Shown here: piece after piece, positions 6,744 through 62,781 of the stretch
Numbering within the stretch: position 1 is the stretch's first letter
How the letters are laid out: the number at the start of each line of letters is the position of its first letter
Source: Agaribacillus aureus
Lineage (GTDB): Bacteria; Bacteroidota; Bacteroidia; Cytophagales; Cyclobacteriaceae
Direction: 5' to 3'
Length of the DNA: 64,000 bases
Assembly: GCA_030442055.1 (NCBI GenBank)
Contig: JAUJEB010000001.1
Span: forward strand, 1,736,001-1,800,000
Program-made: the position numbers and the translations under genes
The notes under the pieces: model-generated
What the model saw: only the letters and a program-made list of their open reading frames with translations
Told to the model about the DNA's origin: nothing
The model's database searches: none

Positions 6744-6768
6744 TATTGCAAAATTAGATATCATCAAA

Positions 6769-9700: not shown

Positions 9701-9948
9701 TTGCCATCAACAGTAATCGTATACTTACCATCAATGTCAGTTACCGTACCGTTGGAAGTCCCTTTTTCAATCACGTTGGCTCCCGGCAACCCACCCCCTT
9801 CATCGGAGGAGGTTACTGTCCCGCTAACGACAATTTTTTGTGCCTGCGCCGTCAGAGAGGCTGCGCAAAAAATCAATGTCAGGCAACAAAAAGCCGTCCA
9901 TGTCCGCTTTAAATGGGTTTGAAAATTCAAAAATCTGAGTGTAAACAT
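6769..9948 (-). CDS. SusC/RagA-family TonB-dependent outer-membrane transporter
   Basis: 1059 residues. After a signal segment (CCLTLIFCAASLTAQAQ) come a carboxypeptidase-D regulatory-like domain (VVSGTVTSSDEGGGLPGANV), the plug beginning near EEIVVVGYGTVKKKDLTGAV, and the SusC signature KVDVMKDASSAAVYGARGSN, then a long beta-barrel ending in the hydrophobic TLGVNVTL. It imports oligosaccharides across the outer membrane with energy from TonB/ExbBD, which are not in this window. The upstream region shared with the divergent lacI-type gene contains two near-identical palindromes, so transcription is probably controlled by that regulator. It is followed by its SusD partner. Confidence 0.96.
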   Translation of the reverse strand: MFTLRFLNFQTHLKRTWTAFCCLTLIFCAASLTAQAQKIVVSGTVTSSDEGGGLPGANVIEKGTSNGTVTDIDGKYTITVDGNATLVVSSVGYLTEEVPVNNRSVIDIVAVPNIQALEEIVVVGYGTVKKKDLTGAVAQIDASKIAHQSPNSVTDILRANVPGLNVGFSNSPKGVSQLEVRGKNTLTAGASPLIVVDGMIYNGDLSDINPNDIDKVDVMKDASSAAVYGARGSNGVILITTKRGQSGKPKISINASVGAATDAFKEEPYDPQGYANWRVDVFNSINAGVIATTPGRFNNPNNLPAGVTLDQWLAYDGATGDPTVAWLNRIGFQDVEIGNFQAGRSVDWYDKIIQTGIRSDLNISLSGGNDALKYYWSIGRTKNEGIVVGDEFETIRTRLNVEGKINDFITVGINTQFANRDEGSVPADVLQIQRSSPWGSEFDDDGNIRLSPQDDSGAGATNAFINRTFTDRVRVFNTLNSRMYAKIGLPLGFSYEFAFTNRFEWNDMFNHFSSESPARANGAASRQHQKIQEWQIDNILRWDKSIGDHTINVTMLAYAEKFQNYFDRSENSIFSPSDDLGFHNLGLGSVPILRGEIDSNGNGRIDGNEGFLGDQKSTGDALMGRINYSYKSRYLLTLAMRRDGYSAFGENNKRATFPSVAAGWVISEEPIFNSELIDFLKLRVSWGENGNREIGRFAALSRLNDGKNLIVDGSGNVQTVATLLNATMENRDLKWERTKAWNFGLDFSILNGKVEGSLDGYHMITNDLLVRRALPDVIGFNSVFTNLGELENNGIELSLTTNNIDRANLRWSSSFNFSLNRNKLNKLYGDLDENGNELDDFVNKWFIGHAIDELWGQKVLGIWQSDQADEAGLYGVQPGDFRILDKNNDQVFTNEDNEFLGFAKPRFRWTLVNNFTIKKNINLSFELYSHLGMRRAFNAAKNRNGFIDRTNSYQTPYWTAENPSNEWARLFSSQGSSNFDVLRNNSFVRLQNVTLSYTFPQQIIQKFSVENLRVYGNIRNAAVWAPDWDLFDPEASEVDGTAGSGPTPRYFTLGVNVTL

Positions 9949-41226: not shown

Positions 41227-43557
41227 ATGCTTCCTGCCCGGTTAAAAATAAAAATCTGGATGATCAGATTTTTTCAATACTTAAGTCTGTTTGCTTTTCT
41301 AATAATACAGAGTTGTTCCACGCCAAACGAACCAAAAGCCGAATTAAGCTTAATACAGTTTGTCGATCCTATGATCGGCACAGATCGCGCAAAGACCATT
41401 TCTGCCATCAAGCATAGTGAATCAGGAGGTACAGAGGATCTGGCGAATACGTTTCCGGCCGTGGGTAATCCCAATGCTATGACGAACTGGACGCCACAAA
41501 CCAGAGCTACGGAAAAAAAATGCCTCTCTCCTTATTACTATTTCGACACCCTCTTTCAAGGTTTTCGGGGCTCTCGTTTTATGAGCGGGTCATGTACCCA
41601 GGATTATGGCAGCTTTACCCTCATGCCTATGACCGGGGAATTGCAATTACATGCAGAAAAGCGCGCTTCTTCCTTCAGTCACGATGACGAATCCGCCTCA
41701 CCCGCATATTACCAGGTATTATTACAAGACTATCAGATCAACGCCGAAATGACCGGGACAACCAGGGCTGGTTTTTTTAGGTTCACTTTCCTCGAGGGCC
41801 AGCAAGGCTTTGTGGTTATGGAGCCTAATAGTGACGAAATGGAAGGGTACATCGAAATTATTCCGGAGAAGAACACTATCATCGGCTACAACCCGGCTCA
41901 TCGCATTTACCAGGGCTGGGGAGAACCCGCCGGATTCAGCGGTTACTTTGTTGCCGTTTTCGATCAGCCCTTTAAGACACATGGCGTCCACCAATGGGAA
42001 GCCGGAGAACAACCGCTTACCAATACCAGTGCCTACGTGGAATTTGATCTTAGCGAAAAAAATCAGGTAATGGCTAAAATCGGCACTTCATTTACCAGTA
42101 TCGAAAATGCTTTGCAAAACCTCAACGCCGAGGTGAAGGGTTGGGATTTTGATGCCGTAAAAACAGAAACACAAAAAAACTGGGAAGATAACCTGGGCGT
42201 ATTGCACGTTAAAGGTCAGTCCGAAGAGGATCTTACACTCTTTTACACCGCCCTGTATCACGCCAATATCCTGCCCAGAGTCTTCAGTGATACGAACGGC
42301 AGCTATCCCGGTTTCGCTGATAACCAGGAAACCCAGCTTGCGACAGGCCATGATTATTACGCCGATTTTGCTACGTGGGATTCCTATCGCACGCTTCATC
42401 CGATGCTAACCATTACAGACCCAAAGAAGCAAACGGATATGGTTAAGTCCCTCATCCGCAAAGCTGAACAGGGCGGCTGGCTCCCTATATTTCCCTGCTG
42501 GAATCAATACACGGCGGCCATGATAGGAGATCATGTAATCTCGGTGATAGGTGACGCCTATATAAAGGGCCTGGAAGATTTTAATATTGATACAGCCTAT
42601 CATTACATGCGGAAAAATGCCTTCGAATCTCCTGAAGACTTCGAAGCATACAAAAATGGCAAGGGCAGGCGAGCGCTAAATTCTTACCTGCGATATGGTT
42701 ACATACCGATGGAAGATTCTGTCAAAGACGCTTTTCACAAAAACGAACAAGTATCCCGAACGTTGGAGTACGCCTATGACGATTTTGTATTGGCGCAGGT
42801 AGCCAAAAAAATGGGCAAAACAGAAGACTACCAGCACTTAATCAAGCGGGCCGCCAACTATCAAAATGTATTTGATACTACCATCGGCTTTGTGCGGGGT
42901 CGTTTCGCAGACGGAAGCTGGGTTGATAATTTTGACCCGGTATCCAGGGCCTCCTACATCACCGAAGGTTCCCCTTATCAATATATGTGGTATGTCCCGC
43001 AGGACGTCCCCGGGCTTATTAAGCTCATGGGAGGAGAACAACGATTTGTTCATCGCCTGGATTCTATGTTTGAGATCGGCGAGTATTGGCATGGCAATGA
43101 GCCGGGTCATCAAACTATCTACCTGTATGCCTGGGCCGGCGCCCCCTGGAAAACACAACATCACGCCAGGGAAGTGCTAAAGGAAGAATACAATACCGGA
43201 CCAGGAGGATTAACCGGCAATGATGACGTCGGCCAGATGTCTGCCTGGGCGGTGATGACGATGGTCGGGTTTTATCCGGTTACACCCGGCACCCCAAACT
43301 ACATCATTGGCAGTCCAGTTTTTGATGAAGTAACCATCACACCAAAAGGCAGCCAAAATACATTTACCATTAGTACTTTAAACAATAGTCCTGAAAACAA
43401 ATATATTCAGTCGGCTACGTTGAACGGCCAGCCTTTCGAGCGGATCTACCTTACGCACAATGAAATAATCGACGGCGGGGTATTACAATTTGAAATGGGC
43501 CCCAAACCCAATAAATCCTGGGCAATTGCCAGCAACGCAAGGCCAAAAGGAATGTAA
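41227..43557 (+). CDS. GH92 alpha-mannosidase, lipoprotein
   Basis: 776 residues from 41227; the ATG at 41260 (MIRFFQYLSLFAF) is an equally good start and gives a shorter SPII signal, with lipobox LIIQSC. GH92 landmarks run through the protein: FVDPMIGTD and NTFPAVGNPNAM at the front, HATW-like ADFATWDSYRTLHP, WLPIFPCWNQYTAAMIGDH, then GNEPGHQTIYLYAWAG and GLTGNDDVGQMSAWAVMTM with the conserved acidic residues. GH92 enzymes are calcium-dependent exo-alpha-mannosidases acting on mannans or N-glycans outside the cytoplasm. It is a single gene, divergent from the FAD oxidoreductase. The exact linkage is not predictable. Confidence 0.94.
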   Translation: MLPARLKIKIWMIRFFQYLSLFAFLIIQSCSTPNEPKAELSLIQFVDPMIGTDRAKTISAIKHSESGGTEDLANTFPAVGNPNAMTNWTPQTRATEKKCLSPYYYFDTLFQGFRGSRFMSGSCTQDYGSFTLMPMTGELQLHAEKRASSFSHDDESASPAYYQVLLQDYQINAEMTGTTRAGFFRFTFLEGQQGFVVMEPNSDEMEGYIEIIPEKNTIIGYNPAHRIYQGWGEPAGFSGYFVAVFDQPFKTHGVHQWEAGEQPLTNTSAYVEFDLSEKNQVMAKIGTSFTSIENALQNLNAEVKGWDFDAVKTETQKNWEDNLGVLHVKGQSEEDLTLFYTALYHANILPRVFSDTNGSYPGFADNQETQLATGHDYYADFATWDSYRTLHPMLTITDPKKQTDMVKSLIRKAEQGGWLPIFPCWNQYTAAMIGDHVISVIGDAYIKGLEDFNIDTAYHYMRKNAFESPEDFEAYKNGKGRRALNSYLRYGYIPMEDSVKDAFHKNEQVSRTLEYAYDDFVLAQVAKKMGKTEDYQHLIKRAANYQNVFDTTIGFVRGRFADGSWVDNFDPVSRASYITEGSPYQYMWYVPQDVPGLIKLMGGEQRFVHRLDSMFEIGEYWHGNEPGHQTIYLYAWAGAPWKTQHHAREVLKEEYNTGPGGLTGNDDVGQMSAWAVMTMVGFYPVTPGTPNYIIGSPVFDEVTITPKGSQNTFTISTLNNSPENKYIQSATLNGQPFERIYLTHNEIIDGGVLQFEMGPKPNKSWAIASNARPKGM

Positions 43558-46523: not shown

Positions 46524-47849
46524 TTAGGAATCCCGGATGATCAAAGCCGCACCGTGTGCTGACCCCTCGGGTCTGTTACTCACTTCAAAAGTATAACCCG
46601 GAAATTTAAGTTTTAGCAAGGTTATGAAGTGTTGATTGCCGGAAAAACCGCCATTAATGACGATCTTTTTTTCCTGCGAATCATGCATAACAAGCGACAA
46701 GGACAATGCCTGAATATCAACAAGCCCCATCATTAAATAGTAATAGGCTTCCTCAAAATCCGATACTTTTTTAACATCCCAGCTATCGTTCGGAAGGCAT
46801 TTTAACAGGAGATCATTTTCCATGGTAGCCGGGTAGAAAGCTATCTTCTTTTCTCTGCATATTTCCCGCCATCTACTCCTGACCCAGGGGATACTTTTGT
46901 AATATGGGGCAGGTTTTTCAAAGATGCGGTTAAGCGAAGTAAGTTGATAACTAAATTCATTTCCCAAAAAAGCACGGGCAACTTTTACCGGCTTCCGGCT
47001 GGTATTTAAAAAGAGCAAACAATCCCTGTTGAGTTCATCAATGGTCAATGGCTTGTTGTTGAAAGGATTCAAGGCAATATTCCAGGTTCCCGTAGAGAGC
47101 AGTATAAATGGTGCTGCGGCATTCGACAAATAGGACAGCAGGGAGGATGAGCTGTCATGTATTCCAACTCCAACCTTCAGGCGCTTTCCGAGAAAAGTAG
47201 CTGCAAAACTGTGTTTTGTATCCACTATTTCAGGCAGCAACGCATCCAGCCCCTCCTTATAAACCCACTGATGATAATCTTCTTTTTCAAAATCCCAGAG
47301 TTTGGTATGACATCCAATGGATGTGGGTTCAGAGACCAGTTTGCCGGTAAAAAGAAAAGACAGATACTGAGGAAAATGTAAACTATATTTTATTTTCCTA
47401 AAAACAGCGGGTTTCGAGTATTTGAGCCAGTATAATTGTAAACCGGCATTTAGCATACCCATGGTTGGAGAGGCTGTTTGGAGATCATTTTCTTGCCGTC
47501 CCCCGTATTTTAGCAAAAAATCCTGTAAAACAGTTTCCGGGAATGGCTTGAGATAATTATACAGTGGTGTAACCGGCTTACCGGTAGCATCCAGGTGCAC
47601 CATCGTGGCGCCATAGGTTGAAAAGTTAAGGCATTTCAAGTCAAATTTTCCTTGTCGGATTGTTTCCCGAACATTTTTTTTTATCCACGCCACAACTGCA
47701 TCAAGGGGTTCACAAGGATCTCCGTCATCGTCCTTTACCGGATCAAAAACTTTTTGTTGCTGATGAATTTTGTTTAAATTTTCATCGTAGATGATGAATT
47801 TTTTATTGGTTTTCCCAATATCAAAAATACCAATCGATGAAATGCCCAT
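46524..47849 (-). CDS. FGGY-family carbohydrate kinase, probable L-rhamnulokinase
   Basis: 441 residues. The ASKHA fold start is IGIFDIGKTNKKFIIYD, and the catalytic Asp region is VGVGIHDSSSSLLSYL, followed by FILLSTGTWNIALNP. A late GGFSGNQHFITLL matches the FGGY nucleotide-site helix. Position in a rhamnose operon, 11 bp after the isomerase, makes rhamnulose phosphorylation likely; the family also phosphorylates fuculose, so specificity rests on context. It is the last gene of the operon, 191 bp before pckA. Confidence 0.88.
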   Translation of the reverse strand: MGISSIGIFDIGKTNKKFIIYDENLNKIHQQQKVFDPVKDDDGDPCEPLDAVVAWIKKNVRETIRQGKFDLKCLNFSTYGATMVHLDATGKPVTPLYNYLKPFPETVLQDFLLKYGGRQENDLQTASPTMGMLNAGLQLYWLKYSKPAVFRKIKYSLHFPQYLSFLFTGKLVSEPTSIGCHTKLWDFEKEDYHQWVYKEGLDALLPEIVDTKHSFAATFLGKRLKVGVGIHDSSSSLLSYLSNAAAPFILLSTGTWNIALNPFNNKPLTIDELNRDCLLFLNTSRKPVKVARAFLGNEFSYQLTSLNRIFEKPAPYYKSIPWVRSRWREICREKKIAFYPATMENDLLLKCLPNDSWDVKKVSDFEEAYYYLMMGLVDIQALSLSLVMHDSQEKKIVINGGFSGNQHFITLLKLKFPGYTFEVSNRPEGSAHGAALIIRDS

Positions 47850-47860
47850 ATCCTCAGTAG

Positions 47861-49144
47861 TTATAAACCGGTGGATATCGTCTTATGCCCTCTTTCGGTA
47901 ATCAGTTGTTGTCTGATTGCTAACTCCCTGAACATGCCTACCGGATCCAGGGCACCTGTCGATCTTAACCTGGCTTCGGCCACCAAAGGCCGTACATCTG
48001 TCCTGAAGGCATTTTGCAACAACTCCTGGGCTTTGACCACATCATTCTGTTCTCTCGCTTCTTCCAATTCATGTTGCTTTACCAGTAAAGCCCTGGCATA
48101 GGCAATTTTGATAGCTTCCACAGATTGCAGTAAATCTTCCAGGGGGTCTTTTACATTGTGGCTTGCATCTATCATCCAGGCGGGTGTTGGGTTGGATAGG
48201 GCCGGATTTTCAATCCCCTCCACTAATTCATTGAAAACCAGAAATAGCTGGTAGGGTTTTATACTGCCTACTGTAAGGTCATCATCTCCATATTTGGAGT
48301 CATTAAAATGAAAACCTCCAAGCTTACCCTCCATTATCAGCAAAGCAACAATTTGCTCAATATTTGTATTGGGTAAATGATGCCCCAGGTCCACCAGGCT
48401 GAATGCCCTGTTCCCAAGCTTGCCAGCTAACAGGTGGGAGGATCCCCAATCCTGAATGACTGTCGAATAAAAATTAGGTTCATAGGGTTTGTATTCTATG
48501 AGCATTTTCCAGTCGTGGGGTAAACCAGCATAAATCTCCTGAAGGCTTTCCAGCGTTCTCATAAAGGCTTTTCTAAAATTCTGCTGCCCGGGGAAACAGG
48601 TGCCGTCAGCAAGCCAAACCGTCAAAGATTTTGAGCCGAGTAATTCGCCATATTTAATGACTTCCAGATTGTGGGCAATACTTCTATCCCGGATGGCCTC
48701 CTCGGTATGCGCCAGCGATCCAAATTTGTAGGAATGCGCCTGGCGAGGCTGATCCTGAAAAGTATTGGAATTAACAGCATCGAAAACAAGATCATTGTCT
48801 TTAGCCAGATCCAGGATGGCTTTTGGATCATCGGGGATATCCCATGGTATGTGCAAAGAAATAGCCCCACTTGATCGGTTTAACTTATGGAGTGTTCCGA
48901 TATCGCCGATTTTCTCTTCAAGATTTCGGGGCTCACCACCGCCAGGAAATCTCCCAAAGCGCGTTCCCCCGGTACCTAATGCCCAGCTGGGAATGGCCAC
49001 CTGCAAGGCTTTAATTTTACGCACTAATTCCTCTGTGTCGTGGCCATCATCGGTCAGTTTATTTTCCAGGTATTGATAATCCCGCCGATGTTTTTTTTCC
49101 AATAAATCGTTATGGCCATTAATTTGGCCAGGGAGAATATTCAT
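47861..49144 (-). CDS. L-rhamnose isomerase-type sugar isomerase
   Basis: 427 residues, the length of the Pseudomonas-type L-rhamnose isomerase (about 430), and not the E. coli RhaA layout. Family features are the start HNDLLEKKHRRDYQYLENKL, IPSWALGTGGTRFGRFPGGG, the metal-site segments MLIEYKPYEPNFYST and LVDLGHHLPNTNIEQ, and GGFHFNDSKYGDDDL. It converts L-rhamnose into L-rhamnulose in the cytoplasm. It lies between the aldolase/dehydrogenase fusion (24 bp) and the kinase (11 bp), so all three are one operon. Confidence 0.93.
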   Translation of the reverse strand: MNILPGQINGHNDLLEKKHRRDYQYLENKLTDDGHDTEELVRKIKALQVAIPSWALGTGGTRFGRFPGGGEPRNLEEKIGDIGTLHKLNRSSGAISLHIPWDIPDDPKAILDLAKDNDLVFDAVNSNTFQDQPRQAHSYKFGSLAHTEEAIRDRSIAHNLEVIKYGELLGSKSLTVWLADGTCFPGQQNFRKAFMRTLESLQEIYAGLPHDWKMLIEYKPYEPNFYSTVIQDWGSSHLLAGKLGNRAFSLVDLGHHLPNTNIEQIVALLIMEGKLGGFHFNDSKYGDDDLTVGSIKPYQLFLVFNELVEGIENPALSNPTPAWMIDASHNVKDPLEDLLQSVEAIKIAYARALLVKQHELEEAREQNDVVKAQELLQNAFRTDVRPLVAEARLRSTGALDPVGMFRELAIRQQLITERGHKTISTGL

Positions 49145-49168
49145 GCCATTAAATTTAAAAAAGTCCTG

Positions 49169-51277
49169 TTATCTGACAAAAGCACCCGGAATGCCACCAT
49201 CAACATTAATTATATTTCCTGTACTTTTGGATAACAATCCGCCGACCAGGGCAAAAACCGCATTGGCGATATCCCGGGTTCCGATTATTTCGTTAAGCAA
49301 GGTTCTTTTAGCATAGTGACCTGGCAATTCCTCCGGACTGATACCATAGGCTTTGGCCCTGCCTTCCGCCCATGCTCCTTCCCATATCCTGCTACCTTCA
49401 ATGACGGCATCCGGGTTTACAACGTTAACCCTGATACCAAAAGGGCCAAGCTCTGCGGCCAGCAACCGGCTCATATGTGTCTGGGCGGCTTTGGCGGTTC
49501 CATAACCGACATTGTTTGGCCCTGAAACCAATGCATTTTTGCTGGCAATATTTATTAGATCGCCCCCGATACCTTGAGCTTTGAGGATTTCCACCGCCTT
49601 TTTAGTAACATTAAATTGCCCTTTTACGATAACATCCTGTAAGTGTTCCCAATCTTTTTCGGTGGTTTCTTCGAGGGGTTTTGAAATAGCCAGTCCCGCG
49701 CAATTAACAACAATATCTACCCCTCCAAATTGTAAACTAATCTTACTGAAGGCTTCTGCTACAGCGTTCTGACGGGTTACATCCAGTGGAGCAAATCCTG
49801 TATTTTCCCGGTCCAGTTCCTGCACCGACTGTGCTAAAAACGTCTCGTCAACATCTGTCAGAAAAACACAGGCACCTTCTTCCAAAAGTTTTTGGGCAAT
49901 CGCTTTGCCAATGCCGCCCGCCCCCCCTGTAATCAGGGCTATTTTGCGTGCTAACGGTTTCTCCCTGGGCATTCTTTGCAATTTTGCTTCTTCCAGTAAC
50001 CAATATTCGATATCGAACGCCTCTTGCAGAGGTAAGGCTACATATTCGGAAATGGCCTCCGCTCCCTTCATCACATTGATGGCATTAATATAAAATTCCC
50101 CTGCCACACGGGCGGTCTGTTTATTTTTGGCGAATGAAAACATACCCACAGATGGCCACAAAATGATGACCGGATTGGGGTTGCGCATGTCAGGGCTATC
50201 GGCTCTCTTATGGTCCTCATAGTATTGCGCATAACCCTCCCTGTAGACTTCAAAGAGTGGCTCAAGGCGTTTGCTTATGTCCAAAGGGTTTGACAGCGGT
50301 ACGTTAGCGGGCAGGTCTAAAACCAGGGGGCGAATCTTGGTTCTTAAAAAATGATCCGGGCAGCTGGTACCTAAAGGAGCCAGTTTTTCCAAATCATGGC
50401 TATTTATAAATTCTAAAACCCGTTCATCATCGGTAAAATGTCCGATCATAGGCGCCTCCCGGGATACCAGGCCTCTCAATACCGGGGCAAGGCTGGCAGC
50501 CTGATTTAATCTTTCCTGCGCGGGCAATGACGCTACTTTTTCCCCGCCAAAAACGGGGTGTAACCTGCCATAGGCATTTTCCAGATAGTGTGAGGCTTTC
50601 TCAATAACTTCCAGACTATTAATGTAACAATCGTAGGAGGTTTCTCCCCAGGTAAATAAACCGTGGCCACCCAACATAATGCCTCTTATATCGGGAGACG
50701 CACCTAAGGCCTTTTCAAGCTGTAGCCCCAGATCAAACCCGGGGCGTTGCCAGGGTATCCAGGCAATCTGACCTTCATATAATTCTTCGGTGATGGCCTT
50801 GCCTTGTTTGGAAGCCGCAATAGCAATAACCGCATCGGGATGCAGGTGATCAATATGTTTGAATGGCAGAAAGGCATGTAACGGCGTATCTATGGAAGGG
50901 GCCCTCGAATCAACATCGAAGAGGCAATGGTTGAACAGCCGGACCATTTCATCTTCGTAAGCCAGCCCCCGGTAAATCGCTTTTAGAGACCTTAACTTTT
51001 CGACGTATAGTGTTGACAGCCCCTCGCGGGTTAAGGTTCCAATATCACCACCGGATCCCTTTACCCACATTACCTCGGCAGGCAAACCTGTTACGGGATC
51101 TTTTTCAATCGTTTTGCAACTGGTATTGCCTCCGCCATAATTTGTAATTCGCAGATCCGAGCCAAGTATATTAGATCTGTAGAGTAACAGCTGAACCTCG
51201 TCACCATCTATTGTTTCGACGTGTTTTTTGTCCCACAAATAGTTTACATATTGAAAGCTGTTTTCAACTAATTCCAT
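49169..51277 (-). CDS. Rhamnulose-1-phosphate aldolase / lactaldehyde dehydrogenase fusion
   Basis: 702 residues. Residues about 1-430 are a class II aldolase domain with zinc ligands H144 and H146 (HIDHLHPDAV) and H205 (LGGHGLFTW). Residues 443-702 are an SDR domain (ALITGGAGGIGKAIAQ, then YGTAKAAQTHMSR with catalytic Tyr-Lys). This fusion, also known as RhaEW/YuxG-type, splits rhamnulose-1-phosphate into DHAP and L-lactaldehyde and oxidises the latter to lactate. It is the first gene of the rhamnose operon and is divergent from the GntR regulator over 181 bp. Confidence 0.95.
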   Translation of the reverse strand: MELVENSFQYVNYLWDKKHVETIDGDEVQLLLYRSNILGSDLRITNYGGGNTSCKTIEKDPVTGLPAEVMWVKGSGGDIGTLTREGLSTLYVEKLRSLKAIYRGLAYEDEMVRLFNHCLFDVDSRAPSIDTPLHAFLPFKHIDHLHPDAVIAIAASKQGKAITEELYEGQIAWIPWQRPGFDLGLQLEKALGASPDIRGIMLGGHGLFTWGETSYDCYINSLEVIEKASHYLENAYGRLHPVFGGEKVASLPAQERLNQAASLAPVLRGLVSREAPMIGHFTDDERVLEFINSHDLEKLAPLGTSCPDHFLRTKIRPLVLDLPANVPLSNPLDISKRLEPLFEVYREGYAQYYEDHKRADSPDMRNPNPVIILWPSVGMFSFAKNKQTARVAGEFYINAINVMKGAEAISEYVALPLQEAFDIEYWLLEEAKLQRMPREKPLARKIALITGGAGGIGKAIAQKLLEEGACVFLTDVDETFLAQSVQELDRENTGFAPLDVTRQNAVAEAFSKISLQFGGVDIVVNCAGLAISKPLEETTEKDWEHLQDVIVKGQFNVTKKAVEILKAQGIGGDLINIASKNALVSGPNNVGYGTAKAAQTHMSRLLAAELGPFGIRVNVVNPDAVIEGSRIWEGAWAEGRAKAYGISPEELPGHYAKRTLLNEIIGTRDIANAVFALVGGLLSKSTGNIINVDGGIPGAFVR

Positions 51278-51458: not shown

Positions 51459-52505
51459 ATGGAGCAAACTTTAGGGCTACAGATCAATGCTAAATCCAGA
51501 ATTCCGAAATACCAGCAGATCGTTAATTCCATCGTGCATAATATAGAAAAGGGGCGCCTTGATATGGGACAAAAAATCCCATCCATTAATGAGGTCAGCG
51601 AGGAATATTACCTGTCACGGGATACTGTCGAGAAGGCCTATAGTGCGTTAAAGCAAAAGCGAATAATTGTCTCTGTAAAGGGCAAGGGATACTACATTGC
51701 CAAGACCAACCTCGTATCGAAGTTTCACGTGCTGATTTTAATGAACAAGCTAAGCTCCTACAAAATGAGAATATACAACTCATTTGTCAAAAGCCTGGAG
51801 GCCAAAGCCCACGTCGATCTGCAAATCTATCACTGCGATCCCAAAATCTTCCTGGATATATTAAAGGAAAAAATGGGTGGTTACGATTATTATATCGTCA
51901 TGCCCCACTTTAAGGATGAAAACCAACGACATATCAACATCAGTAGTGATATCCTTGATGCTTTAAAAAAAATTCCTTCGGATAAGCTGCTACTTTTAGA
52001 TAATGATATCCCGGAACTGGGAGGGGCATATGGATCCGTTTACCAGGATTTCAAGACAGATATTTATAAAGCCCTGGCTGAAGCAGTATCGTTGTTAATA
52101 AAATATGAAAAACTTATTCTGGTATATCCTTCCAACATCATGTATCCGTATCCAAAAGAGATTACAACCGGTTTTAGGAAATTTTGTGTGGAACATCAAT
52201 TTGACTTTGAAATTCTCGATGAGATTTATGACGATATGGAAATGGTACACAAAGACGCCTACATCCTGGTGGAAGAAACAGATCTGGTAAATCTGATCAA
52301 AGAAGCCAGGGATAAGGAATTTCAGCTGGGTAAGGACATAGGTATTATTTCATACAACGAAACCCCTCTCAAAGAACTCCTGGGTATCACCGTGATCACC
52401 ACCGACTTCAAAGCCATGGGAGAAACCGCGGCATATATGATGCTAAACAGAAAAAATGAGAAGGTAAAAAATGCTTTTAGGTTTATTAACCGGAACTCAG
52501 TATAA
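51459..52505 (+). CDS. GntR-family regulator of the rhamnose operon
   Basis: 348 residues. Residues about 12-80 form the GntR winged helix (IPKYQQIVNSIVHNIEKGRL, INEVSEEYYLSRDTVEKAYSAL, GKGYYIAKT). The remainder is a LacI-like periplasmic-binding-protein sensor (FHVLILMNKLSSYKMRIYNS; late GIISYNETPLKELLGITVIT). Proteins of this build respond to sugars. It is divergent from the rhamnose genes and probably represses them until rhamnose or rhamnulose is present; the palindrome at 51326 is a candidate site. Confidence 0.92.
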   Translation: MEQTLGLQINAKSRIPKYQQIVNSIVHNIEKGRLDMGQKIPSINEVSEEYYLSRDTVEKAYSALKQKRIIVSVKGKGYYIAKTNLVSKFHVLILMNKLSSYKMRIYNSFVKSLEAKAHVDLQIYHCDPKIFLDILKEKMGGYDYYIVMPHFKDENQRHINISSDILDALKKIPSDKLLLLDNDIPELGGAYGSVYQDFKTDIYKALAEAVSLLIKYEKLILVYPSNIMYPYPKEITTGFRKFCVEHQFDFEILDEIYDDMEMVHKDAYILVEETDLVNLIKEARDKEFQLGKDIGIISYNETPLKELLGITVITTDFKAMGETAAYMMLNRKNEKVKNAFRFINRNSV

Positions 52506-55197: not shown

Positions 55198-56322
55198 CTA
55201 AACTTTAATAACTATTCCCTTTTTGTACATGATCCAAATGGGAATAAACATGACCGAAGTATTTATTATAGCGTAAGCCAGGGAGGCATTATAGCGATCA
55301 AAAAATGAAAGAAGGATTTCTTCATAAACCCACTGCTTGATAGGGATATCATTTCCCCCGACGGTGGCAACAATAATAGTGTTACTTAATTTACCCCAAA
55401 TACCCGCCAGGAAGTAAGCGATCAAAGCATTTACCCCAAAAGCAACAAATGGGGCTGTCATCTTACGGTATTTTAATACATCCAGAAACCAGTAGGCACT
55501 TGCTATACATATCAAGGCAATACCGGAAGTATAAAGAACGTAGCTGGAGTTCCAGATCCGTTTTATCATAGGGAACTCAAAACTGAAGATCCACCCCAAC
55601 AGCATCATGGCGCTTCCTGCAATAAACAGCCATATCAAACGGACTTTCTCATCCATGGATTTCTGATCTAACAAATAACCGGCAAACAATCCTGACATAC
55701 CTGAAGCAACCGCAGGAATGGTGGAAAACAGCCCGGTAGAATCATAGCGATCCAGCCCTTTGGTACCTAAAAACCCATCTAAAATCAAACGATCAAACCA
55801 GGCGGAAAAATTATTGACCGGATCGAGATTGGCCGGACCAATTCCCGGAACCGGCACATAAGTAAGCAACAGGTAATATCCTACCAGTATGGTACCGTAT
55901 AAAATAAACTGTGATTTTTTGCTGATGAAAAGATAAATCATGGCACAAGCTAAAAATACAAGTGCGATGCGTTGTAATACGCCAAGGATTCGAAATTGGG
56001 TAAAATCAAATTCCGGGAAAAGCCCGAGAAAAAATCCCAACAAAAAGATGATGGCACTCCTTTTCAAAGTTCTTATCACTAGTTGGGACCGGCTCGTTCC
56101 TTTTTTTAGCGCCTTGCCAAAAGAAAGTGTGATAGATATGCCAACAATAAATAAGAAAAACGGAAAAATAAGATCCGTAAAGGTGCAGCCTTCCCATTTG
56201 GCATGAGAGAGTTGATCGTATTTATAGGTCCAACTGCCTGGGTCGTTGACCATAATCATAGCCGCCACAGTAGCACCTCTGAAAAAATCAAGTGAAATTA
56301 ATCTATTGCCGGAGTCATGCAT
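55198..56322 (-). CDS. NagX-like (DUF5009 / HGSNAT-type) membrane acyltransferase
   Basis: 374 residues from the ATG at 56322 (MHDSGNRLISLDFFRGATVA); a start at 56352 is possible. About ten transmembrane segments are visible. The start RLISLDFFRG and WEGCTFTDLIFPFFLFIVGI match the family that includes heparan-alpha-glucosaminide N-acetyltransferase and bacterial NagX. In some bacteria NagX genes sit in GlcNAc loci, where they are thought to help amino-sugar transfer or acetylation at the inner membrane. It is the first gene of a minus-strand unit and divergent from nagB, which supports an amino-sugar role. Confidence 0.85.
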   Translation of the reverse strand: MHDSGNRLISLDFFRGATVAAMIMVNDPGSWTYKYDQLSHAKWEGCTFTDLIFPFFLFIVGISITLSFGKALKKGTSRSQLVIRTLKRSAIIFLLGFFLGLFPEFDFTQFRILGVLQRIALVFLACAMIYLFISKKSQFILYGTILVGYYLLLTYVPVPGIGPANLDPVNNFSAWFDRLILDGFLGTKGLDRYDSTGLFSTIPAVASGMSGLFAGYLLDQKSMDEKVRLIWLFIAGSAMMLLGWIFSFEFPMIKRIWNSSYVLYTSGIALICIASAYWFLDVLKYRKMTAPFVAFGVNALIAYFLAGIWGKLSNTIIVATVGGNDIPIKQWVYEEILLSFFDRYNASLAYAIINTSVMFIPIWIMYKKGIVIKV

Positions 56323-56688
56323 GGCATAGGACTTATTTATGATTAGAAACATTAAAAACCTTCACAAGGTATCAATTAATTATTTCTTTTCCTTTCTTTT
56401 TAAATAAAAAATACCAAAAAATAGAAATATGCAATCAAAATATCTTACATAACCTTTTAATATTATAAAAATAACTATTAACTTCCAACATTATGAATTA
56501 AATTGACCAGGTATTTTATTTGTAGGAACAGTAGTCTTTTAAATTAATAAGCCAGTATTTTTTAAGCATTAAGTATAGTATTAGCCTGAAAAACCTATAA
56601 TTGAATGCGTTGATCAAATTATTATTAATGCGGCGAGGTTTATTATTGATTGTAGTGCGACACACCAATTCTATTAAAATATAAACTA
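56323..56688. other. Divergent AT-rich region between nagX-like and nagB
   Basis: 366 bases, strongly AT-rich, no gene. It must hold promoters for both directions, but I find no exact TANNTTTG box and no strong palindrome. Confidence 0.6.
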
Positions 56689-57441
56689 ATGAAAGTTGTT
56701 ATTTCGGAAAACAAAGAGGTATTGGGAACCCGGGCCTCGGCCTTCAGTGCCAAACTAATTCATGAAACCATTTCACAAAAAGGGGCTGCTAATATCGTTT
56801 TAGCCACGGGCAGTTCCCAGTTTGAGATGTTGGAATCGCTTATCAAAGAAGACATTAATTGGTCACTGGTTACCTGTTTTCACCTGGATGAGTACATCGG
56901 TCTACCTATGACACATCGGGCATCTTTCCGCAAATACCTGAAAGAGAGGTTTGTAGATAAGGTGCAGCCCGGAGCATTTTATTTTATCAATGGCGAGGTT
57001 GACCCACTCGTCGAATGTCAACGTCTTGGCGATCTGATCGCCCGGCACCCTATTGATCTGGCATTCGTCGGTATAGGAGAAAATGCCCACCTGGCTTTTA
57101 ACGATCCCCCCGCTGATTTTGAAACGGAAGAGGCCTTTTTAGAAGTTGTACTGGATGAGGATTGCCGCAATCAGCAATTTGGAGAAGGCTGGTTTGAAAA
57201 ACCGGAGGAGGTACCACAACGGGCTATCAGCATGTCGGTAAAACAAATTTTGAAAGCTAAAAATATCGTTTGTAGTGTTCCGGATAGTCGTAAAGCAACC
57301 GCAGTCAAGGCCGTCATCGAGGGTCCGGTAACCGCGAACGTACCTGCATCCATACTACAGCAGCATAAAAACACTGCGATCTTTCTGGATAACCAGTCAT
57401 CGGCACTGCTGAGCACAAAACAAGGAGTGTATGAAAAATAG
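56689..57441 (+). CDS. nagB: Glucosamine-6-phosphate deaminase family protein
   Basis: 250 residues. It would convert glucosamine-6-phosphate into fructose-6-phosphate and ammonia. The general-base Asp is kept (D67 in FHLDEYIGLP) and the active-site loop is GIGENAHLAFNDPP (129-141) with His134. Where E. coli NagB has Asp141-Gly-His143, this protein has Asn132-Ala-His134, so one catalytic-loop acid is replaced. The operon with nagA supports the assignment. The last 11 bases overlap the Nramp-like gene, whose Shine-Dalgarno-like AAGGAG lies inside this gene. Confidence 0.85.
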   Translation: MKVVISENKEVLGTRASAFSAKLIHETISQKGAANIVLATGSSQFEMLESLIKEDINWSLVTCFHLDEYIGLPMTHRASFRKYLKERFVDKVQPGAFYFINGEVDPLVECQRLGDLIARHPIDLAFVGIGENAHLAFNDPPADFETEEAFLEVVLDEDCRNQQFGEGWFEKPEEVPQRAISMSVKQILKAKNIVCSVPDSRKATAVKAVIEGPVTANVPASILQQHKNTAIFLDNQSSALLSTKQGVYEK

Positions 57442-58669
57442 CCTGGCAAAAAAGATTCTTCTGGCCTTAAGTATGGTGGGGCCGGGGCTTTTCCTTATCG
57501 GTTATAATATTGGTACAGGCAGCATTACGACCATGGCCAAGGCGGGTGCGGAATTTGGAATGTCTCTCTTCTGGACCGTAGTTTTGTCTTGTATTTTCAC
57601 TTACATTCTGATGGTGGCTTACGGACAGGTGACGCTAGTAAGTGGAAAAACCGCCTTATACAATATTAAAACACAAATACCTTTCGGTAAATTCATCGCC
57701 ATCTATATCATGCTGGCACTGATAATCGGGGAATTGCTGGCTTTAATGGGAATTATGGGAATTGTGGCAGACCTGATACAAGAGGGTATCCGCCTGATCG
57801 GTAGTGGCCTGACAGTAAGTACTTTGTTAATTACTCTTATCTTATCATTAGGCCTTTTTTTGCTGCTCTGGAGGGGACGTTACCAGATGTTTGAAAAAAT
57901 CCTTACCGGTTTTGTTGTCTTCATGGGACTTTGCTTTTTGATTGTCTTTTTCCTCGTTAAACCCGACATTTCCGCAATTTTCAAAGGACTGATTCCCCAG
58001 ATCCCCAACCGGCCCGGAACGCTTGGGTTAATAGCGGCCATGGTGGGCACTACCTGCTCAGCGGCGGTTTTTATTGTTCGAAGCATCGTATTATCGGAAA
58101 AAGGCTGGAGCGCGGAAGACCTAAAACTTGAAAAAAAAGATGCGCTGGTTTCCGCGGCAATGATGCTCTTTTTGAGTGGCTTGATCATGGCGGTAGCTGC
58201 CGGCACGTTGCACCTGATGGGGAGCAGATTGACCGATACCATCGAAATGATCCAGCTTTTCCATCCGCTGGGAGGAAATACCGCTGCACTTATTCTTATT
58301 CTGGGGATTACCGGAGCAGCCCTCTCGACAATCTTTCCCATTATTCTGATCGCACCCTGGCTTATTTGCGATTATTTACAAAAACCCAGGGATATTCGCT
58401 CCCCGCTATTTCGCATTTTGGGGCTGGTGGGGCTTCTATTCGGGTTTACCTTACAATTTATTGACAAGCGTCCTCCCGCAATGATGATATTCTCACAGGG
58501 CTTCCAGGCATTTATTCTTCCTGCGGTAACTTTACCAATTCTTTATCTCATCAATCAAAAGTCGGTGATGGGAACTCATACGGCCGGTGTTCGAATGAAT
58601 GCAGGCATAATCTGTGTGTTTTTATTTGCGGTTCTAACCAGTTATTTTGCCATCCTGGAGCTGTTCTAA
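57431..58669 (+). CDS. Nramp-like transporter lacking the metal-binding motifs
   Basis: 412 residues with 11 or so transmembrane segments and clear Nramp layout: GPGLFLIGYNIGTGSITTMA in helix 1 and AAMVGTTCSAAVFIVRS in helix 6. In metal carriers helix 1 reads DPGN and helix 6 MPH; here these become IGTG (27-30) and SAA (210-212), so the Asp, Asn and Met metal ligands are gone. It lies between nagB (11 bp overlap) and nagA (27 bp), which suggests an organic substrate such as GlcNAc or glucosamine. Family relation is good; cargo is inferred. An AAGGAG ribosome site precedes the ATG. Confidence 0.85.
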   Translation: MKNSLAKKILLALSMVGPGLFLIGYNIGTGSITTMAKAGAEFGMSLFWTVVLSCIFTYILMVAYGQVTLVSGKTALYNIKTQIPFGKFIAIYIMLALIIGELLALMGIMGIVADLIQEGIRLIGSGLTVSTLLITLILSLGLFLLLWRGRYQMFEKILTGFVVFMGLCFLIVFFLVKPDISAIFKGLIPQIPNRPGTLGLIAAMVGTTCSAAVFIVRSIVLSEKGWSAEDLKLEKKDALVSAAMMLFLSGLIMAVAAGTLHLMGSRLTDTIEMIQLFHPLGGNTAALILILGITGAALSTIFPIILIAPWLICDYLQKPRDIRSPLFRILGLVGLLFGFTLQFIDKRPPAMMIFSQGFQAFILPAVTLPILYLINQKSVMGTHTAGVRMNAGIICVFLFAVLTSYFAILELF

Positions 58670-58696: not shown

Positions 58697-59908
58697 ATGT
58701 TATCATTAACTTTTTTATCCATTTTGATCATGGCACAATTAACAGCCAGTGACTCGCAACAGGTGGTGGAAGGCATTCATTACCTCGACAATACGCCGGT
58801 ATCAATAGAAATTAACAACGGAAAAATCACCAAGATTACCAGAAAGCGTAAGTTAACGGATCCCTCCCTCGCCAATACCTATATTGCTCCGGGCTTCATT
58901 GATCATCAGATAAACGGCTATCTTTCCCATTCCTTCACCGGAGAGCACCTCAGTGTCGAACAGGTGCAGACAATAACCCGGGCGCTTTGGGAAAACGGCA
59001 TCACCACCTATCTTCCTACCCTGACAAGCCATAGTCAGGATCGGTTGCTGAGAAATTTTGCCATTCTGAAAGAAGCCATGAAGGACCCGCAGATTAAAAT
59101 GTCAGTGCCGGGGTTTCACCTGGAGGGGCCCTACATTTCACCAGTAGATGGCTTTCGGGGCGCACATGAAAGTAAATGGATCCGAAACCCGGATTGGGAT
59201 GAGTTTTCGAAATGGTATAAGGCTTCCGGCGACAAGATTCTGGAAGTTACCGTAGCACCCGAGCTGGAAGATGCCATTGACTTTATACACAAATGTCGCG
59301 AAAAGAATATTGTGGTAGCTTTAGGGCATCATAACGGTTCATCGGAAATTATCAAAGAGGCTATTGATTCCGGCGCCTCGGTAGCCACCCACCTGGGCAA
59401 TGGTTGCGCCAATCTGATTCATCGCCACGATAACCCGCTATGGCCCCAGCTCGCTGATGACCGGTTGATAGCCAGCCTTATTGTCGATGGCTTTCATCTC
59501 AGGCCCGAAGAAGTTCAGGTATTTTACAAAGTGAAAGGTCCCGAAAAGACCATCCTGGTCTCTGATGTCAGTAGCCTGGCCGGTATGCCCCCGGGAGAAT
59601 ATAGGTCATATGGGCGCAAGGTAGTTATGACACCTGAAGGAAAGATCTCAATGCCTTCCGAAGACGTACTGGCCGCAGCTTCATTCTTAATTACCAGGGG
59701 TATAGAAAATGTATTGTCCTTCACACAATGCTCACTGGCCGAAGCCATTCATATGGTCAGCCGCAATCCTGCCAAATTACTGGGGCTGGATGATCGTGGC
59801 GACCTGTCTGTTGGCAAAAGGGCCGATCTGGTCTGGTTTACTTTGCAGGATGGCAAACTGGATGTGAAGAAAACGATGGTAGAAGGTAAGGAGGTATTTG
59901 GTTTTTGA
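58697..59908 (+). CDS. nagA: N-acetylglucosamine-6-phosphate deacetylase
   Basis: 403 residues from 58697; the first 11 codons are a hydrophobic stretch not usual for this cytoplasmic enzyme, and the ATG at 58730 (MAQLTASDSQQ) may be the real start. NagA features are APGFIDHQINGYLSHSF, the metal Glu in FHLEGPYISP, metal His residues in VALGHHNGSSE and ATHLGNGCANLIHR, and the catalytic Asp in ILVSDVSSLAGMPPG. It removes acetate from GlcNAc-6-P and feeds NagB. The HxH pair after PGFID is replaced, as in E. coli NagA. Confidence 0.9.
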   Translation: MLSLTFLSILIMAQLTASDSQQVVEGIHYLDNTPVSIEINNGKITKITRKRKLTDPSLANTYIAPGFIDHQINGYLSHSFTGEHLSVEQVQTITRALWENGITTYLPTLTSHSQDRLLRNFAILKEAMKDPQIKMSVPGFHLEGPYISPVDGFRGAHESKWIRNPDWDEFSKWYKASGDKILEVTVAPELEDAIDFIHKCREKNIVVALGHHNGSSEIIKEAIDSGASVATHLGNGCANLIHRHDNPLWPQLADDRLIASLIVDGFHLRPEEVQVFYKVKGPEKTILVSDVSSLAGMPPGEYRSYGRKVVMTPEGKISMPSEDVLAAASFLITRGIENVLSFTQCSLAEAIHMVSRNPAKLLGLDDRGDLSVGKRADLVWFTLQDGKLDVKKTMVEGKEVFGF

Positions 59909-61356: not shown

Positions 61357-62781
61357 TTAATTGCGATCAGCCAATTGATCTTTACCTTTAATCAAGTTCG
61401 ATTTGTGCTGTCTGACCAACTCATTAATCTGCTGAATAATTTCAGGATGTTTATCGGCAATATTGTATTGTTCGGAAGGGTCATGACTCAGATTATACAA
61501 TATGGGAGGATCATGTACCTCTTTTTCCCCAAACATACCATATACTCCCTGGGTAATAAAATGTGCCTTATAATCTCCCAAACGGGCAGCATAGATTGAA
61601 GTCCCCCGGTAATATAGAATGCTTTGTCTCGGTCCTTTTTCTTTGCTAACCAACGTTGCGCTCAGATCAATTCCATCCATGATCCGGTCATCGGGAACAG
61701 GCAGCCCTGCCATGGCGCTGAATGTTGTGAAAAAATCCATGGTGGAACCCAGATCAGAAATGACTGCCGGCTTAATTTTTCCCGGAGACCAGAAAATACA
61801 AGGTTCCCTCATACCGCCTTCCCAGGTGGATCCCTTACCAGCCCTTAACAACCCCGCGCTTCCCCCATGGGTTTTAAAAGGAAGCCAGGGACCATTATCG
61901 GAAGTAAAGACCACGATTGTATTTTTGTCAAGACCTTCTGCTCTCAAAGTGGCCATGATCTGACCAACCCCATGGTCAATTTCTTCTACCACATCGCCGT
62001 AAAGTCCGCGCTTACTGGTTCCTAAAAATTTCTCAGAGGCAAATAATGGGATGTGCGGAAGGTTATGGGCCAGATAAATAAAGAATGGCTGATCTTTATT
62101 TTCTTTTATAAAGGAAACAGCCTCTTCGGCATATCTTTTGGTAATTGTATTTTGGTTGGCGGGCCGCTCAATGATCTCCGTGTTTCGGATCAGGGGGACG
62201 TTGAAATCTTCGGTTTTGATCGCAGCTTCATTTTTCCAGTAATCTCCATTTTTATTCTTGGCAATAAAATCCATATCATTTGAATACGGAATGCCAAAAT
62301 AGTAATCAAAACCATGATTGGTTGGAAGATATTCTTGGTGATGACCCAAATGCCATTTGCCAATACAAGCGGTTTTATATCCTCCACTTTTTAATTGTTC
62401 GGCCAGGGTGATCTCCGAGGCTGGTAACCCGTGATGCGAGTCCGGAAACAGCACTCTGTGTTTGTCACTACACATTCCGCTCCTTATGGGTAAACGCCCG
62501 GTAAGCAGGGCCGCTCTGCTGGGGGTACAAACACTGGCCCCGACGTAAAAATTGGTCCATTTCTGTCCTTCCGCAGCCATTTGATCCAGGTGAGGTGTTT
62601 TAATAGTCGGGTGTCCGTAAACACCCAGATCCCCGTAGCCAAGGTCATCTGCAAAAATGATGATAAAGTTAGGCCTGCGCTGGGTATCGGCCTGACTCAG
62701 GCAGTCCGTCCCGGCCAGGACTAACATCAACGTCAACAACCAGAAACTTAAAGCGGGTTTGTTTTTCAAAGTATTTTTCAT
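61357..62781 (-). CDS. Secreted sulfatase (formylglycine-dependent)
   Basis: 474 residues with a signal peptide (LSFWLLTLMLVLAGTDCLSQ). The sulfatase fold is clear: metal aspartates in FADDLGYGDLG (D45, D46), the modification motif CTPSRAALLTGR with Cys85 as formylglycine precursor, GKWHLGHH, and the second metal site FTSDNGPW. It would remove sulfate esters from a glycan in the periplasm or at the surface. The maturation enzyme (anSME or FGE) is not in the window. Transcribed alone. The specific sulfated sugar cannot be read from the sequence. Confidence 0.94.
   Translation of the reverse strand: MKNTLKNKPALSFWLLTLMLVLAGTDCLSQADTQRRPNFIIIFADDLGYGDLGVYGHPTIKTPHLDQMAAEGQKWTNFYVGASVCTPSRAALLTGRLPIRSGMCSDKHRVLFPDSHHGLPASEITLAEQLKSGGYKTACIGKWHLGHHQEYLPTNHGFDYYFGIPYSNDMDFIAKNKNGDYWKNEAAIKTEDFNVPLIRNTEIIERPANQNTITKRYAEEAVSFIKENKDQPFFIYLAHNLPHIPLFASEKFLGTSKRGLYGDVVEEIDHGVGQIMATLRAEGLDKNTIVVFTSDNGPWLPFKTHGGSAGLLRAGKGSTWEGGMREPCIFWSPGKIKPAVISDLGSTMDFFTTFSAMAGLPVPDDRIMDGIDLSATLVSKEKGPRQSILYYRGTSIYAARLGDYKAHFITQGVYGMFGEKEVHDPPILYNLSHDPSEQYNIADKHPEIIQQINELVRQHKSNLIKGKDQLADRN

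Follow-up and report, generated by a model that had tools for sequence, protein, structure and literature searches.

An Nramp-like carrier without canonical metal ligands and its linkage to nagA- and nagB-like genes in Agaribacillus aureus and other bacteria

The carrier gene at the nagB-nagA locus

The stretch analyzed here, called the window, comprises 64,000 nucleotides of Agaribacillus aureus DNA (phylum Bacteroidota; contig JAUJEB010000001.1, positions 1,736,001 to 1,800,000), and the gene in question codes for an Nramp-like carrier that lies between a nagB-like and a nagA-like gene (Table 1). An earlier note, made from the letters of the window, had described this open reading frame as an Nramp-like carrier that has lost the metal ligands and might transport an amino sugar. 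The reading frame and the family were borne out, PF01566 (Nramp) being the sole Pfam family of the protein at E ≤ 0.001 with 189.8 bits against a curated cut-off of 29.8, and the coordinates agree with the spacing that had been given, namely, an overlap of 11 bp with the nagB-like gene and 27 bp between the carrier gene and the start of the nagA-like gene. The labels of the two flanking genes held in part. The NagA of the window scored above the TIGR00221 cut-off (258.3 versus 225.65) and is the only match over this cut-off in the window genome. The NagB did not reach the cut-off of any of the NCBIfam models listed for NagB, the best score being 145.3 bits versus 326, and therefore "nagB" is used here as a looser label.

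In the HMMER alignment of the carrier with the Nramp of Deinococcus radiodurans, D-P-G-N stands opposite G28-T29-G30-S31 and V-M-P-H stands opposite C209-S210-A211-A212. Alignment to the Deinococcus Nramp structures has all four ligand positions altered, with Gly28 for Asp, Ser31 for Asn, Ser210 for Met, and Ala212 for His. The ligand loss and the CSAA in place of VMPH thus stand as the earlier note had them, but its placing of IGTG opposite DPGN is off by one residue because DPGN pairs with GTGS. The protein was modelled with AlphaFold2 using a 42-sequence alignment of its clade, which is described below. The model has a mean predicted local distance difference test score (pLDDT) of 88.4 and a predicted template modelling score (pTM) of 0.88, and it has an Nramp-type fold, as expected from the landmarks noticed earlier, with helix 1 broken at residues 27-28 and helix 6 at residues 209-210 as in a LeuT-type fold. 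The best match in the PDB was EleNRMT (7qia) with a template modelling (TM) score of 0.86 at 20% identity, canonical Nramps came next, and the 29 top matches were all Nramp-type entries.

Table 1. Features of the window at and around the carrier gene
Feature	Position	Strand	Basis
Nramp-like carrier, 412 aa, GTGS/CSAA replacing DPGN/VMPH	57431..58669	+	Pfam, alignment, model, tree
Helix-1 break, codons 27-31 (I-G-T-G-S); G28-S31 at the canonical DPGN place	57509..57523	+	
Helix-6 break, codons 209-212 (C-S-A-A), at the canonical VMPH place	58055..58066	+	
Helix-3 Glu, codon 101	57731..57733	+	Residue compared over clade branches
NagA-like deacetylase, 403 aa, hydrophobic N-terminal extension (probable signal peptide)	58697..59908	+	
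NagB-like sugar isomerase/deaminase, 250 aa, without visible export signal	56689..57441	+	
NagX-like membrane acetyltransferase (HGSNAT_cat)	55198..56352	-	Pfam HGSNAT_cat; NF046061 174.2 bits, under cut-off of 480

A separate branch of the Nramp family and its gene neighbours

When 296 genomes of the phylum were searched, one set of matches stood out at 37-59% identity with E < 1e-69, separated by a gap from matches at 29-31%. The members of this set share GTGS in helix 1, they have GTT in helix 6, and G-Y-[NT]-[IV] precedes GTGS in all of them except L058. That the carrier is a lone oddity of one genome is ruled out by the presence of clade members in 13 of 395 genomes of the class (E ≤ 1e-45, its own genome counted) and by at least 573 confirmed clade stretches in a contig scan of a species-genome collection. 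The phylum search, 80 named loci from this collection, and the draw of 395 class genomes together provided 112 clade loci, including the window, and 41 loci with other Nramp-family genes served as controls. Rather than being drawn at random, the 80 named loci are those closest to the query among the at least 573, and many of them are from Flavobacteriaceae. In the first of two trees 25 of the 80 grouped with branch A; the rest were assigned to it by their 61-72% identity to the window protein.

The motif GTGS is present in all 112 clade proteins and in none of the 41 other Nramp-family proteins. Neither of the canonical Nramp/MntH motifs, DPGN and the MPH-type motif, was found in the 112 clade proteins, whereas each occurs in 11 of the 41 controls. 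Likewise, Arg217 is found in 112/112 clade proteins and 0/41 controls, of which 24 have the His of helix 6 at this position. In a tree of 68 proteins the clade forms a single branch (support 100/100) that divides into sub-branches A, which contains the window protein, B, and C, each with 100/100, and D with 99/95; L058 stands alone and was counted with D. This is the second of the two trees; 32 rows of the first, including the longest branches, were dropped from it and an E. coli member was added. In both trees long branches meet and so the sister branch of the clade is unsure. By sequence the carrier belongs to a distinct branch of the Nramp family without the metal ligands, as had been supposed. 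The window genome itself has one clade member each of A, B, and C. One of the three loci adjoins nagA/nagB, another has a NagB-like gene next to the carrier and a TonB receptor near, and the remaining one adjoins an enolase-superfamily gene. This genome has five Nramp-family genes over the cut-off and DPGN is in none of them.

A NagA or NagB gene on the same strand and at most three genes from the carrier was found in 69 of 84 branch A loci, and direct adjoining of the carrier by one of them was likewise found in 69 of 84. Among the 41 control loci there was none within five genes at an E-value of 1e-8; at a looser cut-off of 1e-6 one control, L201, has two weak matches to NagA of the twin-arginine translocation (Tat) type. 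The linked loci have nine arrangements, some clipped by contig ends, with four relative orders of the three genes. The order nagA-carrier-nagB is seen in 42 loci and in two more with an intervening gene, nagA-carrier in 12, carrier-nagA-nagB in five, nagB-carrier in three, and nagB-carrier-nagA, the order in the window, in two and in one more with genes between; carrier-nagB and nagB-x-nagA-carrier are seen once each. By record name the link is present in 56/65 loci of Bacteroidota, 4/5 of KSB1, 3/3 of Pseudomonadota, and 1/1 each of Fidelibacterota, Planctomycetota, and Chlorobiota, which makes six phyla in all, and is absent from Calditrichota (0/2), Acidobacteriota (0/1), and one unplaced metagenome-assembled genome (0/1). 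Among the four branch A members that come from random draws or are the window itself, L040, L167, and the window have the link and L039 does not. In L039 an asparaginase-2 family gene adjoins the carrier; this family includes glycosylasparaginase. On these gene maps the linkage of the carrier with amino-sugar genes is conserved over phyla and gene orders.

The amino-sugar link claimed earlier thus recurs in branch A and is absent from the controls, but it is not a property of every motif-less homologue, being confined to A and partly B. Motif-less homologues without nag linkage, which according to that note would speak against a sugar cargo, do exist; yet in branches B and C other sugar genes lie beside most of them. 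Counting any sugar marker near the carrier, the numbers are 75/84 for A, 10/10 for B, 8/12 for C, 1/6 for D, and 0/41 for the controls, and these counts favour the clade since the markers other than NagA and NagB were drawn from clade neighbourhoods. In 13 of the 84 branch A loci a second protein with at least seven hydrophobic segments is encoded on the same strand, at most five genes from the carrier, and there is none in the other 71. In some loci LacI-type regulators with sugar-binding domains are upstream. It was also observed that Gfo/Idh/MocA proteins and a 3-keto-disaccharide hydrolase often precede nagA-carrier-nagB (L132:5265-6713, L090:6693-7724, L147:6803-7648), hinting at 3-keto sugars; the best NCBIfam match of one such Gfo/Idh/MocA protein is the glycoside 3-dehydrogenase BT_2158 family, below the cut-off.

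Partner enzymes, sister branches, and the wider locus

NagA is within five genes of the carrier in 65 branch A loci, and after five short or too distant proteins were removed by a length and identity filter the N-termini of 60 were scored. An export-type N-terminus was called in 59 of these and the remaining one is cut at a contig end. Fifty-five are of the hydrophobic Sec or lipoprotein type and four are of the twin-arginine type, which is 55/55 and 4/4 among complete N-termini; the twin-arginine proteins are a separate lineage, about 29% like the window NagA. Such an extension is absent from E. coli NagA and was found in 0/4 scored NagA of same-phylum controls (four of eight control loci scored). 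The NagB neighbours lack an export-type N-terminus in 55 of 58 cases, and in the three that pass the rule (L090, L116, and L142) the stretch is, by eye, the first helix of the fold, so NagB looks cytosolic. Judged by hydrophobicity or twin arginines, two groups of Gfo/Idh/MocA neighbours look exported (50/53 and 34/37). The 3-keto-disaccharide hydrolase-like neighbours look exported in 11/11 cases, 2-keto-3-deoxy-6-phosphogluconate (KDPG) aldolase in 0/5, and galactonokinase in 0/2.

In a slightly different set of NagA proteins Asp273, Glu131, His195, and His216, which we take to be catalytic and metal residues, are kept in 59/59. The NagB of the window keeps D72, H143, and K208 (E. coli numbers) and has Gln at the position of Arg172; part of the residue roles that we give for the two E. 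coli enzymes NagA and NagB is assumed. Reading this Gln as proof of a phosphate-free substrate was considered and is weakened by a longer NagB homologue in L104, which in our alignment also is without that Arg. Two more NagB-family genes are in the window genome (G000:C31:873312-873983 and 650451-651125), in open frames of 645 and 666 aa. The L104 homologue is similar to these and has an HPDDD stretch downstream that presumably resembles PIG-L/LmbE deacetylase, and by this route deacetylation might take place in the cytosol.

In branch B (10 loci) the carrier is in polysaccharide loci with enzymes of glycoside hydrolase (GH) family 20, GH2 beta-glucuronidases, or GH88-like enzymes, at least one such marker being present in 9/10, and its neighbours include a xylose-isomerase-like protein in 9/10 and TonB receptors in 8/10; in 4/10 a NagB-like gene is at most five genes away. 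In branch C (12 loci) the neighbours include alginate lyase, a lyase of the chondroitinase B family, KDPG aldolase, 2-keto-3-deoxy-galactonokinase, and PfkB kinase, with a marker in 8/12. Branch D is mostly without a sugar link. Residue 101 is Glu in 84/84 proteins of A and 10/10 of B, Gln in 12/12 of C, and mixed (Val, Ile, and Gln) in D. Glu101 in the NagB-linked branches A and B and Gln101 in the uronate-linked branch C would fit a positively charged versus an anionic cargo, which is only suggestive.

The E. coli member of branch D (L237:9229-10458, NZ_AP018784.2) is in the order LacI, CoA transferase, enoyl-CoA hydratase, carrier, and FAD oxidoreductase, between dnaB and qorA. It is an accessory gene: 545 of 5,426 complete E. 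coli genomes matched a 1,501-base query over 80% or more of its length, and 825 gave any match. Another copy of the carrier, in L236 (CP054241.1 799178-816394), is split over two frames; this 834-kb record is labelled an E. coli plasmid, holds dnaB, alr, tyrB, and dusA, and may be chromosomal. Two other branch D carriers (L172:9195-11288 and L173:5767-7998) adjoin proteins in which a thioredoxin-like domain (DUF255) is combined with a GH88-like region.

The NagX-like gene that had been pointed out opposite the carrier is there and carries the HGSNAT_cat domain, but it falls below the NF046061 cut-off, and such a gene is within five genes of the carrier in just 5 of 84 branch A loci. Thus it is probably not a fixed part of the system. 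No match to a Bacteroidota-type promoter pattern was found upstream of nagB, and the window as a whole has four matches to this pattern against 3.12 expected. Near nagA on the opposite strand is a sulfatase gene (61357-62781), and sulfatase-like genes are near the carrier in 14 of 103 clustered loci, consistent with an amino sugar that is sulfated. Farther away, the genes at 46524-51277 and 51459-52505 code for an FGGY kinase, an unassigned protein of 427 aa, a fusion of an aldolase with a dehydrogenase, and a regulator of the GntR type that has a sugar-binding domain, and probably form a deoxysugar operon that we take to be rhamnose-like. The window also has a SusC/SusD-type pair (4905-9948) and a GH92 enzyme (41227-43557).

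Proposed function and relation to known systems

Since NagA has an export-type N-terminus and NagB does not, a substrate would have to pass through the membrane on its way from one enzyme to the other, and the Nramp-like protein, which usually is the sole multi-span protein nearby, would be the importer. We propose, with somewhat more confidence than doubt, that the protein is a secondary carrier of the LeuT fold whose binding site now accepts a small organic substrate in place of metal and that in branch A it imports glucosamine or a near relative across the inner membrane. In this scheme N-acetylglucosamine (GlcNAc) or one of its derivatives would be deacetylated outside the inner membrane by the exported NagA-like enzyme, and the carrier would import the free amino sugar. 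The cytosolic NagB-like enzyme, either by itself or together with a kinase whose gene is elsewhere, would then convert this sugar to ammonia and a fructose compound. The linkage is strong, and of the two sugars glucosamine is the more likely cargo because the N-terminus of NagA places deacetylation probably outside the inner membrane. Thus the idea of an amino-sugar cargo is retained from the earlier note, with the likely sugar shifted to glucosamine. The sequences show the fold (as a model), the ligand loss, the clade, the gene linkage, and the contrast between the N-termini of NagA and NagB, and we infer a sugar as the cargo, glucosamine as that sugar, and the direction and energy source of transport. 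Other sugars or sugar acids are the probable cargo of the sister branches. A wider proposal, which we hold only tentatively, is that a whole branch of metal transporters has turned to sugar and sugar-acid carriers, that the carrier of one sub-branch performs the middle step in a so far unrecognised route for amino sugars with outside deacetylation, and that residue 101 may set the choice of charge.

Several observations weigh against the import of glucosamine. Fifteen of the 84 branch A loci have no nag gene within three genes, nine of them away from a contig edge and six at one. The export calls come from a simple hydrophobicity rule and not from a trained predictor. Of the four NagA proteins with twin arginines, three fail this rule and were judged by motif. 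The nagA of the window has a possible later start at Met12 that would drop the signal. The exported NagA keeps Arg227 in 59/59 and Asn219 in 55/59 proteins, and by our own mapping these correspond to the 6-phosphate residues of mycobacterial NagA. According to the excerpted text of PMC6016474, the mycobacterial enzyme has no activity on plain GlcNAc and accepts GlcNAc-6-sulfate, and so the true substrate of the exported NagA may carry a negative group, as GlcNAc-6-sulfate does. NagB keeps Lys208 in 58/58 proteins, which fits a phosphorylated substrate; by our mapping, residues of this type are tied to the 6-phosphate in other enzymes (PMC8369159, in excerpt). No sugar kinase family is among the 25 of 90 families listed for 69 operon neighbours. 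In the sister branches 6/10 B and 4/12 C loci have a further multi-span protein encoded on the same strand (of SSF or MFS type in five and three). There the sugar may be carried by that protein instead of the Nramp-like one, which makes the case weaker. The Glu/Gln pattern at residue 101 rests on just three branches.

The retained phosphate-site residues raise the question whether NagA acts in the cytosol on a phosphorylated sugar, as in the textbook pathway, with the carrier taking up GlcNAc or an oligosaccharide. Conservation of Arg227 and Asn219 of NagA and of Lys208 of NagB is what this explanation would predict. It does not account for the Sec- or Tat-type N-termini, which 59 of 60 scored NagA neighbours carry and which are missing from the four scored same-phylum controls and from E. 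coli NagA, and no BcrAD/BadF-type kinase was found over the cut-off in the window genome, ROK-type kinases not having been searched for. We consider it improbable. Still less credit is given to the explanation that the carrier exports pathway waste, acetate or ammonium, or a toxic intermediate. Linkage to a deacetylase and a deaminase would be expected of such an exporter, but branch C adjoins uronate and 2-keto-3-deoxygluconate (KDG) enzymes, which release neither acetate nor ammonium, and if NagA is exported acetate is already released outside.

The most serious alternative to glucosamine import, although on balance an unlikely one, is that the protein is still a divalent-metal importer that feeds the metal enzymes of the operon, NagA among them, through a non-canonical site, as has been said of MntG. 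MntG (YcsG) is motif-less and lies in the 5-oxoproline (pxpABC) operon of B. subtilis, yet its overproduction raises cell Mn2+ (PMC10448178, in excerpt). In view of this case, gene linkage alone cannot settle the cargo. EleNRMT also moves Mg2+ and Mn2+ without the canonical motif, and the E. coli clade member is publicly annotated as an "Nramp family divalent metal transporter". However, EleNRMT keeps the helix-1 Asp (DxxG) where the clade has Gly in 112/112 proteins, and the clade is separate from the branch that lies beside LamB_YcsF and CT_C_D/CT_A_B genes (MntG not being among the tree proteins). In addition, the enzymes beside the sister branches share no obvious need for metal, and metal import leaves the crossing of the sugar unexplained in loci without another carrier.

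If the import of glucosamine by branch A is correct, the annotation of the branch would change, including that of the E. coli gene called a divalent metal transporter; the metal transporters would gain a relative with a different cargo, and the result would point to a route for amino sugars in which deacetylation takes place outside the cytosol. The question of what motif-less Nramp branches carry becomes directly testable. Nramp-related proteins without DPGN and MPH are already known (PMC4072509, PMC9606685, and PMC12873925, as excerpted), and in the excerpted part of a 2026 preprint the motif-less groups beyond the NRMT-like one and that of MntG are called "entirely uncharacterized". Motif-less relatives are thus a known and mostly uncharacterised group, and what is new here is the export-type N-terminus of the linked NagA. 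In the open-licence literature of PubMed Central we found no sugar assignment for this branch.

The carrier resembles the canonical Nramp/SLC11/MntH proteins of D. radiodurans (8e60) and B. fragilis (10ky) in its Pfam family and its broken helices 1 and 6, with query-normalised TM scores of 0.83 and 0.80, and differs from them in having neither DPGN nor MPH and in being on a separate branch. The Mg2+ transporter EleNRMT is the best structural match and NRMT too is without the binding-site Met, but NRMT has DxxG in helix 1 and TxxA/T in helix 6 where the window protein reads GxxS and TxxS; the tree held no NRMT protein. MntG, of the "G-motif 3" group, is similar in lacking the canonical motif and in being in a metabolic operon. 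Once annotated as a 5-oxoproline importer, it is now reported to import Mn2+ (PMC10448178), an activity that the 2026 preprint terms hypothesised. Motif-less Nramp relatives beside LamB_YcsF and CT_C_D/CT_A_B genes of the pxpABC type or beside hydantoinase/oxoprolinase genes were observed in L063 and L065, and the pxp-type locus L063 is on another branch with GPGT (MntG itself being outside the tree). By gene content, 5-oxoproline-type linkage recurs on a branch other than the clade. An Nramp-type gene in an alginate cluster, as in some branch C loci, has been described in the alginolytic clusters of Alteromonas sp. 76-1, where the legend of the supplement names it a metal-ion transporter (PMC6431674, in excerpt); the likeness is by description and not by sequence. 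Finally, the hydrolytic GlcNAc pathway, with uptake by a phosphotransferase system (PTS) or an MFS carrier followed by a kinase, NagA, and NagB (PMC9537276, in excerpt), has NagA- and NagB-type enzymes in common with the branch A loci. Unlike in that pathway, the carrier here is Nramp-like, there is no sugar kinase family among those listed for the operons, and NagA looks exported.

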